Under the pieces are notes generated by a model. That model made no database searches, was not told the origin of the DNA, and saw only the letters and a list, made by a program, of their open reading frames with translations. The translations under genes were made by a program, and so were the position numbers. DNA of 64,000 nt, taken from positions 1,302,001-1,366,000 of the forward strand of contig NZ_CP163512.1 of assembly GCF_041075285.1 (NCBI RefSeq). Reading direction: 5' to 3'. Below are positions 13,604 to 61,583 of this stretch, one piece after another. This DNA comes from Providencia rettgeri. GTDB taxonomy: Bacteria; Pseudomonadota; Gammaproteobacteria; Enterobacterales; Enterobacteriaceae. Positions within the stretch are counted from its first letter, which is position 1. The number at the start of each line of letters is the position of its first letter.

Positions 13604-13623
13604 AGATAGCCCCTAGGGGCTAT
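13604..13623 (+). terminator. maeB terminator hairpin, left copy at repeat T1
   Basis: The hairpin ATAGCCCCTAGGGGCTAT lies just after maeB but has no U-tract because the T1 repeat begins right after it. Ten of its bases (TAGCCCCTAG) occur again at 13765-13774 on the other side of T1, as half of a hairpin. This fits duplication of the terminator around the inserted repeat and later loss of one half. Confidence 0.6.
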
Positions 13624-13763
13624 CAGACTGCTGACATACATACATGTTTGGCGGCAGTCTGAATAGGTTATTGAAAATAAATCTGGAAAATCAATTTATT
13701 GATTTTCGCCTAATAGCCCCAAGTGGGTAAATCACGCTTTTACCCCACTTTGTCAACAACCTC
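13624..13763 (-). repeat. Terminator-associated repeat T1
   Basis: A 140-bp non-coding repeat, inverted relative to T3 and T4. On the minus strand it starts GAGGTTGTTGACAAAGTGGG and ends in TCTG. Three hairpins are visible: CAAAGTGGGGTAAA with TTTACCCACTT, an A/T-rich hairpin GAAAATCAAT/ATTGATTTTC, and a third with CAGACTGC/GCAGTCTG ends. The first hairpin is partly decayed on one arm. No coding capacity. Confidence 0.85.
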
Positions 13764-13816
13764 TTAGCCCCTAGACATAAAAGGCTTCCTTTTTCATCAG
13801 GAGGTCTTTTTTAATT

Positions 13817-34903: not shown

Positions 34904-34969
34904 AACATAACCTCGGTTGGGTGTTTCCATATACACATAAACGACCCCCAACCTAAGGTGTGTTTATGT

Positions 34970-35095
34970 GTCTATGGTCTTGCCAACCAGATTATGGTGT
35001 CCGCACCACGTTTGAAATCAAACGAGTATGTTGATACGGACTTTCTGGAATATATATATTTCCAGAACAGGCTACTCCCCAATGACGTGGAAAGA
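34970..35095 (-). promoter_or_regulatory. yybP-ykoY manganese riboswitch of mntP
   Basis: On the minus strand the leader carries TTGGGGAGTAGCC (at 35083-35071), the paired arms, ATCAACATACTCGTT-like segments and GGTTGGCAAGACCAT (down to about 34973). This is the conserved yybP-ykoY architecture that senses Mn2+ before mntP in E. coli. Downstream, ACACATAAAC (34971-34962) can pair perfectly with GTTTATGTGT (34942-34933), a likely part of the expression switch. Confidence 0.9.
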
Positions 35096-46979: not shown

Positions 46980-47121
46980 AGGTTTTATATATTACTGGCA
47001 TAGATGTAACCAATTGAACAAATAGTTCAATATTAGAAAATTAAGCAATAAATTGTGTTAATAATATGTAAAATAATTGATAATTAATGTGGTAAGAACG
47101 TGCATTGAAAGCTAGTATTAA

Positions 47122-47220
47122 GGTGTACTTTGTTACGTCTCAATGGCAATTTTAGCGCACGGCTCTGCCAGAGCCATTTCCCAAGGCCCGGTAATCGGAA
47201 TCTACCAGGCCTCTTTTTTT
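47122..47220 (+). ncRNA. sdsR: Small RNA SdsR (RyeB)
   Basis: The segment TTTTAGCGCACGGCTCTGCC, AGAGCCATTTCCC and the final GGCCCGGTA...TACCAGGCC terminator with seven T correspond to the conserved core of enterobacterial SdsR, an Hfq-dependent sigma-S-controlled sRNA. It sits directly downstream of yebY, as in E. coli. The 5' end is estimated from a CTAGTATT -10-like element at 47112-47119; it could differ by several bases. The 5' third differs from E. coli. Confidence 0.88.
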
Positions 47221-47309
47221 GCCTATTGTTTTTCATCGACGCATATTGACCTATCAATAGTAAGCCAATCACCTGTGCATTCATGATTTTCTTATTGCCC
47301 AATAAAGTA

Positions 47310-52666: not shown

Positions 52667-54706
52667 ATGAACAAATTTCTTAAAGTTGCACTAGTCGTTA
52701 GTTTAGCGACTTTCGGCAGTGCAATGGCTAATACTCAAGCAGTGGCTCCGGTCACTGCTGCTCAGTTACCTGTCTTAAAACAGAGCGCACAGCACGGCAC
52801 CGTCAGTGAAAGGGTAACCTCACGGTTTACGCGTTCACATTATCGCCAATTTGATTTAGACAAGGCGTTTTCTGGGAAAATATTTGATCGTTATCTCAAT
52901 ATGCTAGATTTCGGTCACAATGTTTTACTTCAATCCGATGTTGACCAATACGCTAAAGATAAAGGAAAAGTCGGTCAATGGCTTGAGGATGGCAAATTAG
53001 ATACGTTTTATGATCTGTATAATCTGTCTCAGGAAAGACGTTTCGAACGTTTTAAGTATGCATTAGCACGTTTAGAACAACCGATTGATTTGAATGCGAC
53101 GGATTCGATTGAAGTTGACCGTTCAAAATCACCTTGGCCAAAAGATAAGCAAGAGCTTGACCGTCTTTGGGATCAAAAAGTCCGTTATGATTGGTTAAAC
53201 TTAAAACTTTCAGGCAAAGATGACAAAGAAATCAAAGAAAAACTCACTAAGCGTTATAACTTTGCGTTGCGTCGCTTAACCCAAGCGCAAAGTGAAGATG
53301 TTTTTCAGTTAATTGTGAACGCATTTGCCCGTGAAATCGATCCGCACACCAGTTATCTTTCTCCTCGTAATACAGAGCAATTTAATTCTGAAATGAGTCT
53401 TTCATTAGAAGGGATCGGCGCTGTTTTGCAGCAGGATGATGAAAATACGGTGATTAACTCCCTCGTTGCAGGGGGGCCTGCGGCTAAGAGCAAAGAACTG
53501 AAAGTCGGTGACAAAATTATCGGCGTTGGTCAAATGGGTAAACCGATTGTTGATGTTGTGGGTTGGCGTCTGGATGATGTTGTTGCATTAATCAAAGGGC
53601 CTAAAGGAAGTCAGGTTCGTTTGGAAGTCGTTTCTGATACTAAAGGTGCGAAACCACATATCGTTACTTTAGTGCGGGAGCAGATCCGACTTGAAGACCG
53701 TGCCGTAAAACTGACGATCAAACAAGAAGGTAAAGATAAAGTTGCTGTGTTGGATATTCCAGGCTTTTATGTTGGTTTAACCAATGACGTAAAAACACAA
53801 CTGCAAAATATGTCAAAAGATAATGTTTCTGCGTTAATTATTGACCTTCGTGGCAATGGTGGTGGAGCATTAACGGAAGCTGTTTCGTTATCAGGTTTGT
53901 TTATTCCGAAAGGGCCAATTGTTCAAGTGCGAGATAACAATGGTCAAGTTCGTCAAGATGTTGATGATGATGATGTTATTTACTATAAAGGGCCATTGGT
54001 TGTTTTAGTTGACCGTTTTAGTGCATCAGCTTCTGAAATTTTTGCCGCAGCAATGCAAGATTATGGTCGTGCGTTAATTGTCGGTGAACCTACATTTGGT
54101 AAAGGCACTGTTCAGCAGCACCGGAGTTTAAGCCGTGTTTATGACCAGATGTTGAAACCGGAATGGCCATCATTGGGATCTGTGCAATATACCATCCAGA
54201 AGTTTTATCGTGTCAATGGTGGTAGTACGCAACGTGAAGGGGTTACTCCAGATGTGGTGATGCCAACGGGGCAAGATCCTGCTGAAACGGGGGAAAGCTT
54301 TGAAGATAATGCGTTGCCATGGGATAGTATTCCTGCTGCGAACTACAGTAAAGTTGGTGATATTTCATCGGATTTATCTGCCATTAAAACCAAGCACCTC
54401 GCTAGAATTAGTCAGGATCGTGAATTCAATTATATCGATGAAGATATTGCGCGCTATAAAGTGAATAAAGAAAGTAAAAATCTGATTTCATTAAATTACG
54501 CACAGCGTAAGAAAGAAGATGATGAAATCGAGGCGACGAAGTTAAAACGCATAAATGAACGTAATGCGAAAGAAGGTAAGCCATTACTGAAAAAACTGGA
54601 AGACTTACCAAAAGATTACGAAGCGCCAGATCCTTATTTGGACGAAACGGTGAAGATGGCGGTTGATTTGGCTAAGCAAAATACCAAAATGCTATCCAGT
54701 AATTAG
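52667..54706 (+). CDS. prc: Carboxy-terminal (tail-specific) protease Prc
   Basis: A 679-residue periplasmic serine protease. A signal peptide (FGSAMA) comes first, then helical N-terminal region, PDZ domain (about 240-325, SLSLEGIGAVLQ) and a catalytic core with the Ser in DRFSASASEIFAAAMQDYGR and the Lys in GEPTFGKGTVQQH. It processes FtsI and, with NlpI, degrades MepS. It is co-transcribed with proQ. The transcript ends at the duplicated terminators around repeat T3. Confidence 0.95.
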   Translation: MNKFLKVALVVSLATFGSAMANTQAVAPVTAAQLPVLKQSAQHGTVSERVTSRFTRSHYRQFDLDKAFSGKIFDRYLNMLDFGHNVLLQSDVDQYAKDKGKVGQWLEDGKLDTFYDLYNLSQERRFERFKYALARLEQPIDLNATDSIEVDRSKSPWPKDKQELDRLWDQKVRYDWLNLKLSGKDDKEIKEKLTKRYNFALRRLTQAQSEDVFQLIVNAFAREIDPHTSYLSPRNTEQFNSEMSLSLEGIGAVLQQDDENTVINSLVAGGPAAKSKELKVGDKIIGVGQMGKPIVDVVGWRLDDVVALIKGPKGSQVRLEVVSDTKGAKPHIVTLVREQIRLEDRAVKLTIKQEGKDKVAVLDIPGFYVGLTNDVKTQLQNMSKDNVSALIIDLRGNGGGALTEAVSLSGLFIPKGPIVQVRDNNGQVRQDVDDDDVIYYKGPLVVLVDRFSASASEIFAAAMQDYGRALIVGEPTFGKGTVQQHRSLSRVYDQMLKPEWPSLGSVQYTIQKFYRVNGGSTQREGVTPDVVMPTGQDPAETGESFEDNALPWDSIPAANYSKVGDISSDLSAIKTKHLARISQDREFNYIDEDIARYKVNKESKNLISLNYAQRKKEDDEIEATKLKRINERNAKEGKPLLKKLEDLPKDYEAPDPYLDETVKMAVDLAKQNTKMLSSN

Positions 54707-54725
54707 TCGTTCTAAATATCTTATT

Positions 54726-54746
54726 AAAGCCAGCTTACGCTGGCTT
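54726..54746 (+). terminator. prc terminator hairpin, left copy
   Basis: AAAGCCAGCTTACGCTGGCTT forms a perfect hairpin but runs directly into repeat T3 with no U-tract. A 21-bp near-copy (ACG loop changed to ATG) lies at 54887-54907 on the far side of T3 and has the T-run. Confidence 0.8.
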
Positions 54747-54886
54747 GAGGTTGTTGACAAAGTGGGATAAAAGCGTGGTTTTTCCCACTTTGTGTTATCA
54801 AGCGAAAATCAATATATTGATTTTCCTTGTTTATTTTCAAAATCTATCCAACCTGCTGCCAAACATGTTATGTTTGGCAGCCGTCT
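54747..54886 (+). repeat. Terminator-associated repeat T3
   Basis: A 140-bp copy between two terminator hairpins. It starts GAGGTTGTTGACAAAGTGGG. Hairpin 1 is CAAAGTGGGA/TCCCACTTTG; hairpin 2 is a perfect 22-bp palindrome at 54814-54835 (GAAAATCAATA and its complement); hairpin 3 is GCTGCCAAACAT/ATGTTTGGCAGC. It ends CCGTCT. No coding frame of note. Confidence 0.88.
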
Positions 54887-54912
54887 GAAGCCAGCTTATG
54901 CTGGCTTTTTTT
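54887..54912 (+). terminator. prc terminator, right copy
   Basis: AAGCCAGC / GCTGGCTT hairpin followed by seven T. It is the functional-looking copy of the pair that brackets T3. Confidence 0.88.
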
Positions 54913-54929
54913 GTTATGGTGGGTTGACC

Positions 54930-55199
54930 TTATTTAATAGCACTTTTATCCGCACTCACACTGTTTATTTGGGCGAGCCATTGCACTTCGTGAACCGTCA
55001 GTTTTAATGGTTTGGCTATAAAAGGGCGGTGTAATGTATAAGTTTGATTGGCAATTTTAATCATAGGTATTTCAGCTAACTTTTTGATTATCGTGTTTTC
55101 CTGTTGGGAAAATTTCGCCTGAGCATAATCTTGTAACAAGTCCCTATGTTTTTTTGTTGGATGACAGTTTTTAGAGTGAAAAGGTAAATGTATTGGCAT
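54930..55199 (-). CDS. Hypothetical protein
   Basis: An 89-residue basic protein of unknown family. The sequence is compositionally normal for a coding gene (IPMIKIANQTYTLHRPFIAK, PLKLTVHEVQWLAQINSVSA) with no signal peptide or membrane helix. Only a weak GAG ribosome motif precedes the ATG. It converges on prc past repeat T3. I do not recognise it. Confidence 0.5.
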   Translation of the reverse strand: MPIHLPFHSKNCHPTKKHRDLLQDYAQAKFSQQENTIIKKLAEIPMIKIANQTYTLHRPFIAKPLKLTVHEVQWLAQINSVSADKSAIK

Positions 55200-55467: not shown

Positions 55468-56181
55468 ATGCGTAAAATACTTTTAGGATCGATAGTCGTT
55501 AGTATCATGATGGTTTCAGCGGTTAATACAGCGAATGCGAGGAATTATCCTTGCTCAGGCAGTAAAGGTGGAATAGAGCGCTGTGAAGATGGCAAATTTA
55601 TTTGTAACGATGGCTCGACAAGTCGTTCAGAGCAAGTGTGTACGATTGAATTAAAAAACGATATCAATAGCAAGGCGGGCATTGTTGGGGGAGGGATTGG
55701 AGCAGGCGTCGCGAAACAATCCAGTAAAGCCTCTGATAAGGCGAAAACAGTGAAAGATAACGTGTCTAAAGAAGTGGAGAAAGAGACGAAAGAAAAGGCA
55801 AATAAAGTTGCGGACAAAGACGTGACTAAAGAGACAAAAGAAAAAGCGTCAAAAGCGGCAGACAAGAAAGAGACAGTGAAAGAAACAAAAGAAAAAGCAA
55901 ATAAAGTTGCGGACAAAGACGTGACTAAAGAGACAAAAGAAAAAGCGTCAAAAGCGGCAGACAAGAAAGAGACAGTGAAAGAAACAAAAGAAAAGGCAAA
56001 TAAAGCTGCGGACAAAGACGTGACTAAAGAGACAAAAGAAAAAGCGGCTAAAGCAGCTGATAAAAAAGCCGCAGTGAAAGAGACAAAAGAAAAGGCAAGT
56101 AAAACGGCGGATAAAGAAAAGTCAAAAGTAGTGAAAGAAAAAGCGACTAAAGCAACTGATAAGGAAAAGGCAAATAATTAA
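55468..56181 (+). CDS. Secreted YdcA-like protein with LEA-like Lys/Ala/Glu repeats
   Basis: A 237-residue exported protein. Signal peptide residues 1-24 (cleaved after TANA); then a Cys-rich head (about 26-60; NYPCSGSKGGIERCEDGKFI, CNDGS, QVCT) similar to the small E. coli protein YdcA; a Gly-rich hinge (70-82); and four tandem 33-residue repeats (105-137, 138-170, 171-203, 204-236) of the KETKEKANKVADKDVT type. Each repeat is three 11-mers, as in group 3 LEA proteins, which fold into amphipathic helices on drying. The first two units are almost identical in DNA. Function unknown; a periplasmic protective or adhesive role is inference. Confidence 0.78.
   Translation: MRKILLGSIVVSIMMVSAVNTANARNYPCSGSKGGIERCEDGKFICNDGSTSRSEQVCTIELKNDINSKAGIVGGGIGAGVAKQSSKASDKAKTVKDNVSKEVEKETKEKANKVADKDVTKETKEKASKAADKKETVKETKEKANKVADKDVTKETKEKASKAADKKETVKETKEKANKAADKDVTKETKEKAAKAADKKAAVKETKEKASKTADKEKSKVVKEKATKATDKEKANN
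55780..56178 (+). repeat. Tandem 99-bp coding repeats
   Basis: Four consecutive 99-bp units (55780, 55879, 55978, 56077) inside the LEA-like gene. Units 1 and 2 are nearly identical; units 3 and 4 diverge progressively. This makes copy-number variation by slippage or recombination likely. Confidence 0.85.
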
Positions 56182-61068: not shown

Positions 61069-61368
61069 ATGGGGCGTAAGGTCAGTCAGTTATTAAAATC
61101 GGTGATGGCAGTGGTGGTTGCCGGAATAATGTCAGTGATGTTATCGGCTTGTGGAAACTCAGAAGTGAATAAAACCGTTGATAATTCTGCAACTCAATAT
61201 GCGAAGCAAGTGGTTAATTTGGGCCCAGGCGCTCAAGAAGCTTGCGTTTCAGCAGGGGGATTACCTGCATTAACGTTTGAGCTGAATGGCGATAAAACTG
61301 CGGTCTGCCAATTTGCAAATGGCAAACGTTGCGCTGCAAATGTGATCCAAAGTGGTGCTTGTATTTAA
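61069..61368 (+). CDS. DUF333 lipoprotein
   Basis: A 99-residue lipoprotein. The signal peptide ends in VMLSAC (lipobox), followed by a linker and the DUF333 domain with paired cysteines (EACVSAGGLPA, AVCQFANGKRC, SGAC). DUF333 proteins are small periplasmic or secreted proteins, some named hemolysin without proof. GGGAGATAAAGCGC precedes the ATG. The terminator is duplicated around repeat T4. Confidence 0.82.
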   Translation: MGRKVSQLLKSVMAVVVAGIMSVMLSACGNSEVNKTVDNSATQYAKQVVNLGPGAQEACVSAGGLPALTFELNGDKTAVCQFANGKRCAANVIQSGACI

Positions 61369-61390: not shown

Positions 61391-61416
61391 GAAAGCCCCC
61401 TTTAATTGGGGGCTTT
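61391..61416 (+). terminator. Terminator hairpin, left copy at repeat T4
   Basis: A 26-bp hairpin (GAAAGCCCCC, TTTAATT loop side, GGGGGCTTT) follows the DUF333 gene but lacks a T-run because T4 starts immediately. It is identical to 61555-61580. Confidence 0.85.
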
Positions 61417-61554
61417 GAGGTTGTTGACAAAGTGGGATAAAAGCGTGGTTTTTCCCACTTTGTGTTATCAGCCGAAAATCAATATATTGATTTTCCTTAT
61501 TTTTTCAAAACCTATCCAACCTGCTGGCAAACCTAATCGGTTTGTCAGCAGTCT
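61417..61554 (+). repeat. Terminator-associated repeat T4
   Basis: A 138-bp copy very similar to T3. It starts GAGGTTGTTGACAAAGTGGG and contains the CAAAGTGGGA/TCCCACTTTG hairpin, a perfect 22-bp palindrome (61474-61495) and a third hairpin CTGCTGGCAAACC/GGTTTGTCAGCAG. It ends GTCT before the duplicated terminator. Confidence 0.9.
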
Positions 61555-61583
61555 GAAAGCCCCCTTTAATTGGGGGCTTTTTA
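61555..61583 (+). terminator. Terminator, right copy at repeat T4
   Basis: The second identical copy of the 26-bp hairpin, here followed by TTTTT. It is the likely functional terminator and faces the convergent dsbB gene. Confidence 0.88.

Follow-up and report, generated by a model that had tools for sequence, protein, structure and literature searches.

The closest described relatives of the repeat studied here are small enterobacterial repeats and transposons of the IS1182 family. YPAL/RU-2, the palindromic sequences of Yersinia, are intergenic, about 167-168 bp long, accompanied by a target duplication and devoid of a terminal TA, while ERIC, IRU and RU-1 carry TA at their termini (both according to Table 1 of PMC2229807). 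In staphylococci, IS1272 and TnSha1 of the IS1182 family are described as targeting terminators and other stem-loops that share no consensus of primary sequence; the stem-loop is reportedly replaced or partly deleted, and no target duplication arises (PMC4923244, PMC5678879). The MITEs of ISMac2, an IS1182 element of Methanosarcina acetivorans, measure 160-169 bp, with direct repeats of 4 or 0 bp in the table of PMC3852290, as we interpret its column order. The portions of the literature that our search covered hold no description of stem-loop-long duplications by IS1182, nor of the present element in Providencia. A DDE transposase with fixed spacing is expected to give a duplication of fixed length.

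Here we analyze an element that lies 3′ of prc and at many other loci of Providencia rettgeri. We propose, with a probability of roughly 0.8, that it was inserted locus by locus with duplication of a whole stem-loop, and that it descends from IS1182.

Anatomy of the prc locus

The window, a stretch of 64,000 nucleotides, belongs to a P. rettgeri genome of 4.35 Mb in one contig, and contains three copies of the element (see the table). At prc, the two bracketing stem-loops, AAGCCAGCTTACGCTGGCTT and AAGCCAGCTTATGCTGGCTT, are identical at 19 of 20 bases, and the sole difference lies in the loop. The first-pass annotation had counted 20 of 21 bases with one change in the loop; the loop change stands and the count does not (position 54726 is A and 54887 is G). 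It had also described a left copy without contact to a T-tract and a right copy that keeps it, and this is borne out: a T-tract follows the right copy only, and intrinsic-terminator scoring picks out that copy alone. Since terminators have A before the stem and T after it, the T and A at the two extremities of the element are ambiguous and may belong to either the element or the target.

The folding of the 143-nt element confirms the three hairpins noticed at first reading, and is more stable than that of all 200 shuffled sequences (z -7.6). The whole 241-nt region also beats its shuffles (z -8.7), partly through mutual pairing of the left and right copies. An Rfam scan gave no match at the element locus. 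The loops of the prc copies, TTAC and TTAT, are the reverse complements of GTAA and ATAA, and the loops of element-free relatives include GAAA and GTAA, as if the prc loop had been flipped.

The copy beside the DUF333-like gene is bracketed by a stem-loop unlike that at prc, AAGCCCCCTTTAATTGGGGGCTT, which is identical on its two sides. The decayed minus-strand copy is flanked by TAGCCCCTAGGGGCTA at one end and by no more than TAGCCCCTAG at the opposite end.

Table. Features of the three element copies and their flanks in the window
Feature	Coordinates	Strand	Basis or remark
prc, carboxy-terminal processing / tail-specific protease	52667..54706	+	NCBIfam and Pfam; its terminator received the insertion
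Left stem-loop copy of the prc terminator (target duplication), AAGCCAGCTTACGCTGGCTT	54727..54746	+	followed by the element, not by a T-tract
Mobile element (MITE), 143 bp, TGAGGTTGTTGACAAA...TCTGA	54746..54888	+	ends from copy comparison and end matches
Internal hairpin 1 of the element	54757..54793	+	overlaps the left terminal repeat
Internal hairpin 2 of the element, GAAAATCAATATATTGATTTTC	54804..54825	+	folding; coordinates taken from the sequence
Internal hairpin 3 of the element	54855..54881	+	overlaps the right terminal repeat
Right stem-loop copy AAGCCAGCTTATGCTGGCTT (54888-54907) and T-tract	54888..54912	+	sole terminator-like call in 54650-54960
DUF333-like gene	61069-61368		Pfam match slightly below cut-off
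Left stem-loop copy of the second element, AAGCCCCCTTTAATTGGGGGCTT	61393..61415	+	sequence
Second element copy, 3′ of the DUF333-like gene	61416..61556	+	end matches, sequence
Right stem-loop copy of the second element, identical AAGCCCCCTTTAATTGGGGGCTT, then TTT	61557..61579	+	sequence
Third element copy, decayed	13623..13764	-	flanked by a palindrome (13607-13622) and, opposite, by a truncated copy (13765-13774)

A large family bracketed by duplicated stem-loops

The element is a member of a large Providencia family. A search of its own genome with the prc locus returned 134 first-look candidates, with at least 40 copies among those listed (40 scored). With up to two mismatches, the two 16-base ends matched this genome at 86 and 88 places, 48 of them exact in each case, and the reversed-pattern controls at 2 and 6. 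Among 60 genomes, the own genome included, 26 contain element matches: 23 of the 24 from the same genus and three beyond it. The phage collection and the E. coli genomes gave no element match at an E-value of 1e-5. In the plasmid collection, 12 records have partial matches (nine Klebsiella, two Proteus and one Providencia), two of which were fetched.

In order to compare flanks, we surveyed 84 copies with both ends, namely 64 of the 70 loci fetched from the own genome and 20 of the 28 fetched from relatives. The excluded own loci (L035, L040, L042, L045, L058 and L059) have no end pair 100-150 bp apart or represent the deletion derivative, and eight loci of relatives (L088, L091, L092 and L094-L098) were set aside on like grounds; many lone ends and at least two end pairs (near 3395612 and 4316840) lie outside the survey. 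A direct repeat of 16-30 bp flanks 70 of the 84 copies (51/64 in the own genome and 19/20 in relatives). The repeat is exact in 40 of these, with one mismatch in 15, two in 11, and three or four in 4, and its sequence varies locus by locus, in agreement with the first-pass view that the hairpin belongs to the target. When the flanks were shuffled into mismatched pairs, an equal score was reached by 1 of 16,602.

The repeats are stem-loops. Hairpins abut both ends in 69 of the 84 copies (51/64 and 18/20, respectively), while the null in the flanking DNA of the own genome is 5.2% per side; the insertion model as first formulated demanded that most copies lie next to terminators, and they do. The repeat is centred exactly on the dyad of the hairpin in 62 of the 70 bracketed copies, and no more than 1 bp away from it in the remaining eight. 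Moreover, repeat length and optimal stem-loop span are moderately correlated (r 0.46, p 5e-5), a relationship in which A/T tracts lengthen the stem past the repeat. A strong repeat is missing from 14 copies, and two of the 84, L054 and L057, have a hairpin at neither end.

The bracketed copies are also oriented. A T-tract on the right only is found in 32 and an A-tract on the left only in 5, with both in 22 and neither in 11 (p 7e-6); the imbalance of 32 versus 5 indicates that the orientation is biased, either by insertion or by selection. The right stem-loop copy is not significantly better kept than the left (14 versus 8, with 8 equal; p 0.29), and we do not offer this comparison as evidence that it is the right copy which terminates transcription. 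The gene context, judged crudely from the longest open frame on each side, was determined for 50 of the 84 copies: 29 lie between convergent genes, 21 between tandem genes (15 + 6), and none between divergent genes.

Three sites deserve individual description. In L012 (47985-48137 of the own genome), the loops of the flanking hairpins are mutually reverse complementary, AATG versus CATT; as AATG is also the loop of the nearest element-free relatives, it is the right copy that looks inverted. With this one clear case and one possible case at prc, we do not take inverted loops to prove that a hairpin intermediate exists. In L011 (2880233-2880376 of the own genome), the right copy shows a compensatory pair change, C-G to T-A, as compared with the left copy, which has the sequence of the nearest relatives. 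One terminator is occupied in two species (L008 and L074), with AAAA loops in both hairpin copies of one and GAAA loops in both copies of the other, and this may reflect either independent insertions at one site or concerted change.

Element-free sites in relatives

What did the sites look like before the element arrived? Over the 170 bases after prc, the element is absent from all 18 aligned same-genus relatives (the alignment was confined to this genus and left out 11 further order-level loci, L122-L132). A GCCAG...CTGGC hairpin occupies the site in 17 of them and a different hairpin in the other, L107. By eye, each relative has one hairpin, so that empty sites with two hairpins, which the first-pass annotation had named as fatal to an insertion model, number 0 of 18. 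At the L011 site, the element is absent from 23 of 23 relatives in the stretch shown, mostly with one terminator hairpin in place, and in two close ones, L209 and L210, this is a single TACCCCAT...ATGGGGTA hairpin. The L012 site is likewise element-free in all 17 aligned relatives (of 23); the nearest two, L233 and L234, have one hairpin, and the remaining relatives are too diverged for comparison. These single-hairpin empty sites set the direction of change as insertion with duplication.

Probable parentage in the IS1182 family

We reached IS1182 loci by a PF13751 search and examined 75 of them for ends; among plasmid records, 8 of 1514 matches were fetched. End pairs of the TCAGACTGCTGACAAA type, 1.3-1.6 kb apart, are present at 28 of the 75 loci, which represent at most 27 elements since L135 and L187 are two readings of one IS. 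The stem-loop is duplicated at 17 of the 28, and hairpins stand at both ends in 26 (null 5.7% per side). The loci with a duplication include Providencia plasmids (L203-L205) and the P. burhodogranariea chromosome (L183, L184), as well as Klebsiella (L191, L206, L207), Izhakiella (L180), Serratia (L182), Rhodanobacter (L186) and Paludifilum (L188). When the 75 loci were scanned for exact repeats, palindromic direct repeats turned up only beside this end type, including the diverged L134/L179, and the other IS1182 loci had none.

The remaining 11 of the 28 loci, such as L200 and L201 on Salmonella plasmids and L202 in Providencia, have no duplication. Several of the 11 carry two different hairpins, which we put down, as a conjecture, to recombination between copies. 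The right-hand hairpin of L200, which is one of the 26, is the inside of a second IS copy. This Salmonella plasmid locus (CP053580.1, 74382-79281) contains two tandem IS1182 transposase genes, with the right end of one copy abutting the other.

The IS1182 family is a DDE family (PF13751, PF01609), and its cut-off is passed by the Providencia proteins of L204 and L205 and by two of the three fragments tested. With the L204 transposase as query, no solved structure was found at an E-value of 0.01.

A deletion derivative links the MITE to the IS1182 elements and speaks for an origin of the MITE by internal deletion. This 220-bp sequence, at 1427483-1427702 of the own genome, opens with the IS end and codes for 28 residues of the transposase N-terminus, 24 of which are as in L204; its right end is 98% identical to the right 58 bp of the element. 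Its two flanking hairpins differ. In addition, a transposase remnant in the same genome adjoins a hairpin, GGCGACCATCTAGTCGCC, that is repeated 1.7 kb off beside an IS left end, as expected for a decayed IS; this left end is the start of the 220-bp derivative.

The right-end 16-mer of the element is identical to the ends of several IS loci. The left end, TGAGGTTG, is a variant of the end that these IS usually have, TCAGACTG; a TGAGGTT-type end occurs in just one of the 28 IS loci, Paludifilum L188, and the left 85 bp of the element gave no match to 15 IS loci. The IS1182 elements with TCAGACTGCTGACAAA-type ends and the MITE share terminal inverted repeats, terminator targets and a duplicated stem-loop, and differ in that the former are 1.3-1.6 kb long with a transposase, while the MITE has none and has the variant left end. 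In the own genome, PF13751 has one degenerate match, and an intact IS1182 element with such ends did not turn up; the source enzyme must therefore either be missing from it today or reside in relatives and plasmids. An autonomous parent was also sought there as end pairs 0.8-3 kb apart, and none was seen by eye in the lists of end matches.

Comparison with the described elements

Both YPAL/RU-2 terminal sequences, TTCAGACTGCTGACAAAC... and ...CACTTTGTCAAYAACCTCA, are present in the element. One YPAL end agrees with the Providencia majority sequence at 18 of 18 positions by eye (16 of 18 in the prc copy) and the other end agrees with the element at 18 of 19; target duplication and the lack of a terminal TA are likewise common to both. 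However, the interiors are unrelated, the lengths are 168 and 143 bp, and only the ends align well. Shared ends around a different interior make the element, as judged by this alignment, a relative of YPAL and not YPAL proper. The initial impression that no described enterobacterial repeat behaves in this way has to be given up: the ends match YPAL/RU-2, and stem-loop targeting by IS1182-family elements has already been reported in the sources consulted above.

An RU-2 search of the own genome produced no match at an E-value of 0.001 among the 2 scored of 78 candidates, and YPAL end-pattern searches matched 0 of 394 and 0 of 198 genomes, in sets that may hold no Yersinia. De Gregorio is said to have described, in 2006, many YPAL targets as overlapping terminators. 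Of the 17 plasmid records with RU-2 matches, 15 cover most of RU-2; two were fetched, and the flanks were checked in L287 (E. coli plasmid NZ_CP067312.1, 70600-72763), where a YPAL relative has a 15-bp flanking hairpin repeat with 2 mismatches. Many Enterobacterales genomes match the interior alone, at RU-2 positions of about 67-120 (L263-L286), and no end pair was found in L257-L286; the matches of the RU-2 search lay mostly in the interior of the repeat. The RU-2 interior may be a separate structured repeat.

The outcome for the target is opposite to that of IS1272, since the Providencia element has hairpins at both ends (69/84) and matching repeats (70/84); stem-loop replacement of the IS1272 type was rejected for the element, as its stem-loop is duplicated. 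The ISMac2 MITEs also differ, with no stem-loop duplication listed for them. The element resembles ERIC, IRU and RU-1 as an enterobacterial structured intergenic MITE of similar size. ERIC identity was rejected, because the termini are TGAGG...TCTGA, with neither a terminal TA nor a TA duplication.

Proposed mechanism and alternatives

How might a DDE transposase duplicate a whole stem-loop? The copy survey, the single-hairpin empty sites and the flanks of the IS relatives all agree with the first-pass proposal of insertion at rho-independent terminators with duplication of the entire stem-loop. We propose that the element is a non-autonomous, internally deleted transposon of the Providencia IS1182 lineage, which an IS1182 transposase, acting in trans, would put into intrinsic terminators. 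The two ends of the element would join at the 5′ feet of the hairpin, one on each strand. At a four-way junction, these joins would be a constant distance apart for any arm length, and repair would copy the intervening hairpin, yielding a duplication of stem-loop length (16-30 bp) centred on the dyad. Attack at the feet of an extruded hairpin would thereby make the duplication length follow the hairpin length, and joins at the 3′ feet, with reversed polarity, would result in loss of the stem-loop, the IS1272 outcome. That the transposase recognizes an extruded hairpin, as a cruciform or a single strand, is a tentative suggestion to which we give slightly less than even odds. We are equally guarded about the generalization that this IS1182 DDE clade may size its duplication by DNA structure and not by fixed spacing, attacking the two 5′ feet in a resolvase-like manner.

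Could the two hairpins have pre-existed, as tandem terminators or a chance pair, so that the element landed between them and nothing was duplicated? Convergent genes might plausibly have such pairs between them, and this arrangement is what 29 of 50 loci seem to show; however, the element-free orthologues have one hairpin (18/18 at prc, and L209 and L210 at the L011 site), and each locus has its own repeat, an exact one in 40 of 70, which leaves this the least probable of the accounts considered. Hardly more credible is homologous recombination or gene conversion, by which the element would have entered terminators resembling its adjoining hairpin and carried one hairpin along. The L008/L074 site, with AAAA loops on both copies against GAAA on both, speaks for such an exchange, but the stem-loops vary by locus and match the element-free orthologues at the compared sites, which assigns the hairpin to the target. 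Moreover, mismatched flanks do not match (1 of 16,602), and no hairpin sequence is common to donor and target loci.

The remaining alternatives concern the enzyme and the shape of its target. Hairpin targets or long duplications are features of HUH/REP, group IIC intron and Cas1-like systems, and structure-guided copying of a single strand or RNA by an HUH/REP-associated transposase, by group IIC intron-like target-primed reverse transcription or by a Cas1-like integrase might replace a DDE reaction; the apparent loop inversion in L012 hints at a folded intermediate of this kind. Nevertheless, the ends and one deletion derivative point to IS1182, a DDE family, and the IS1182 elements have the same flanks, so we regard this route as quite improbable. 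It is less far-fetched, though still unlikely, that insertion and parentage are as we propose but that the enzyme prefers a palindromic duplex and makes long staggered cuts at the palindrome ends, with no extrusion. Some IS1182 members are described as palindrome-targeting (Siguier 2015, as cited in PMC4923244 and PMC5678879), but dyad-centred repeats of 16-30 bp (62/70) would be hard to produce for a fixed-spacing dimer on linear duplex.

Locus-specific insertion with stem-loop duplication by an IS1182 enzyme would have several implications. Through shared ends and an intermediate, YPAL, an orphan enterobacterial repeat type, is now linked to a transposase family. The element would have a way to occupy terminators, which offer safe ground within a compact genome, and yet leave them intact. 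To judge from the anatomy, transcription from either side would still run, past the element, into a full stem-loop that has a T-tract of its own; since a complete terminator is kept there, the cost to the host would be small, and the element would become part of 3′ UTRs, so that such insertions would give dozens of genes structured 3′ UTRs. The question of how a DDE enzyme yields variable-length duplications that match a hairpin becomes testable, and if the duplication is truly measured by structure, the stem-loop loss of the IS1272 type would be the same reaction with its polarity reversed.

Other features of the window

The protein encoded at 55468-56181 is rich in lysine, looks secreted, contains tandem KETKEKANKVADKDVT-type repeats and has no match in Pfam; the start of a similar gene lies 3′ of prc in at least one relative (L105). 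Rfam matches in the window correspond to a manganese riboswitch on the minus strand (34904-35092) and to the SdsR/SraC small-RNA pair (47087-47222).
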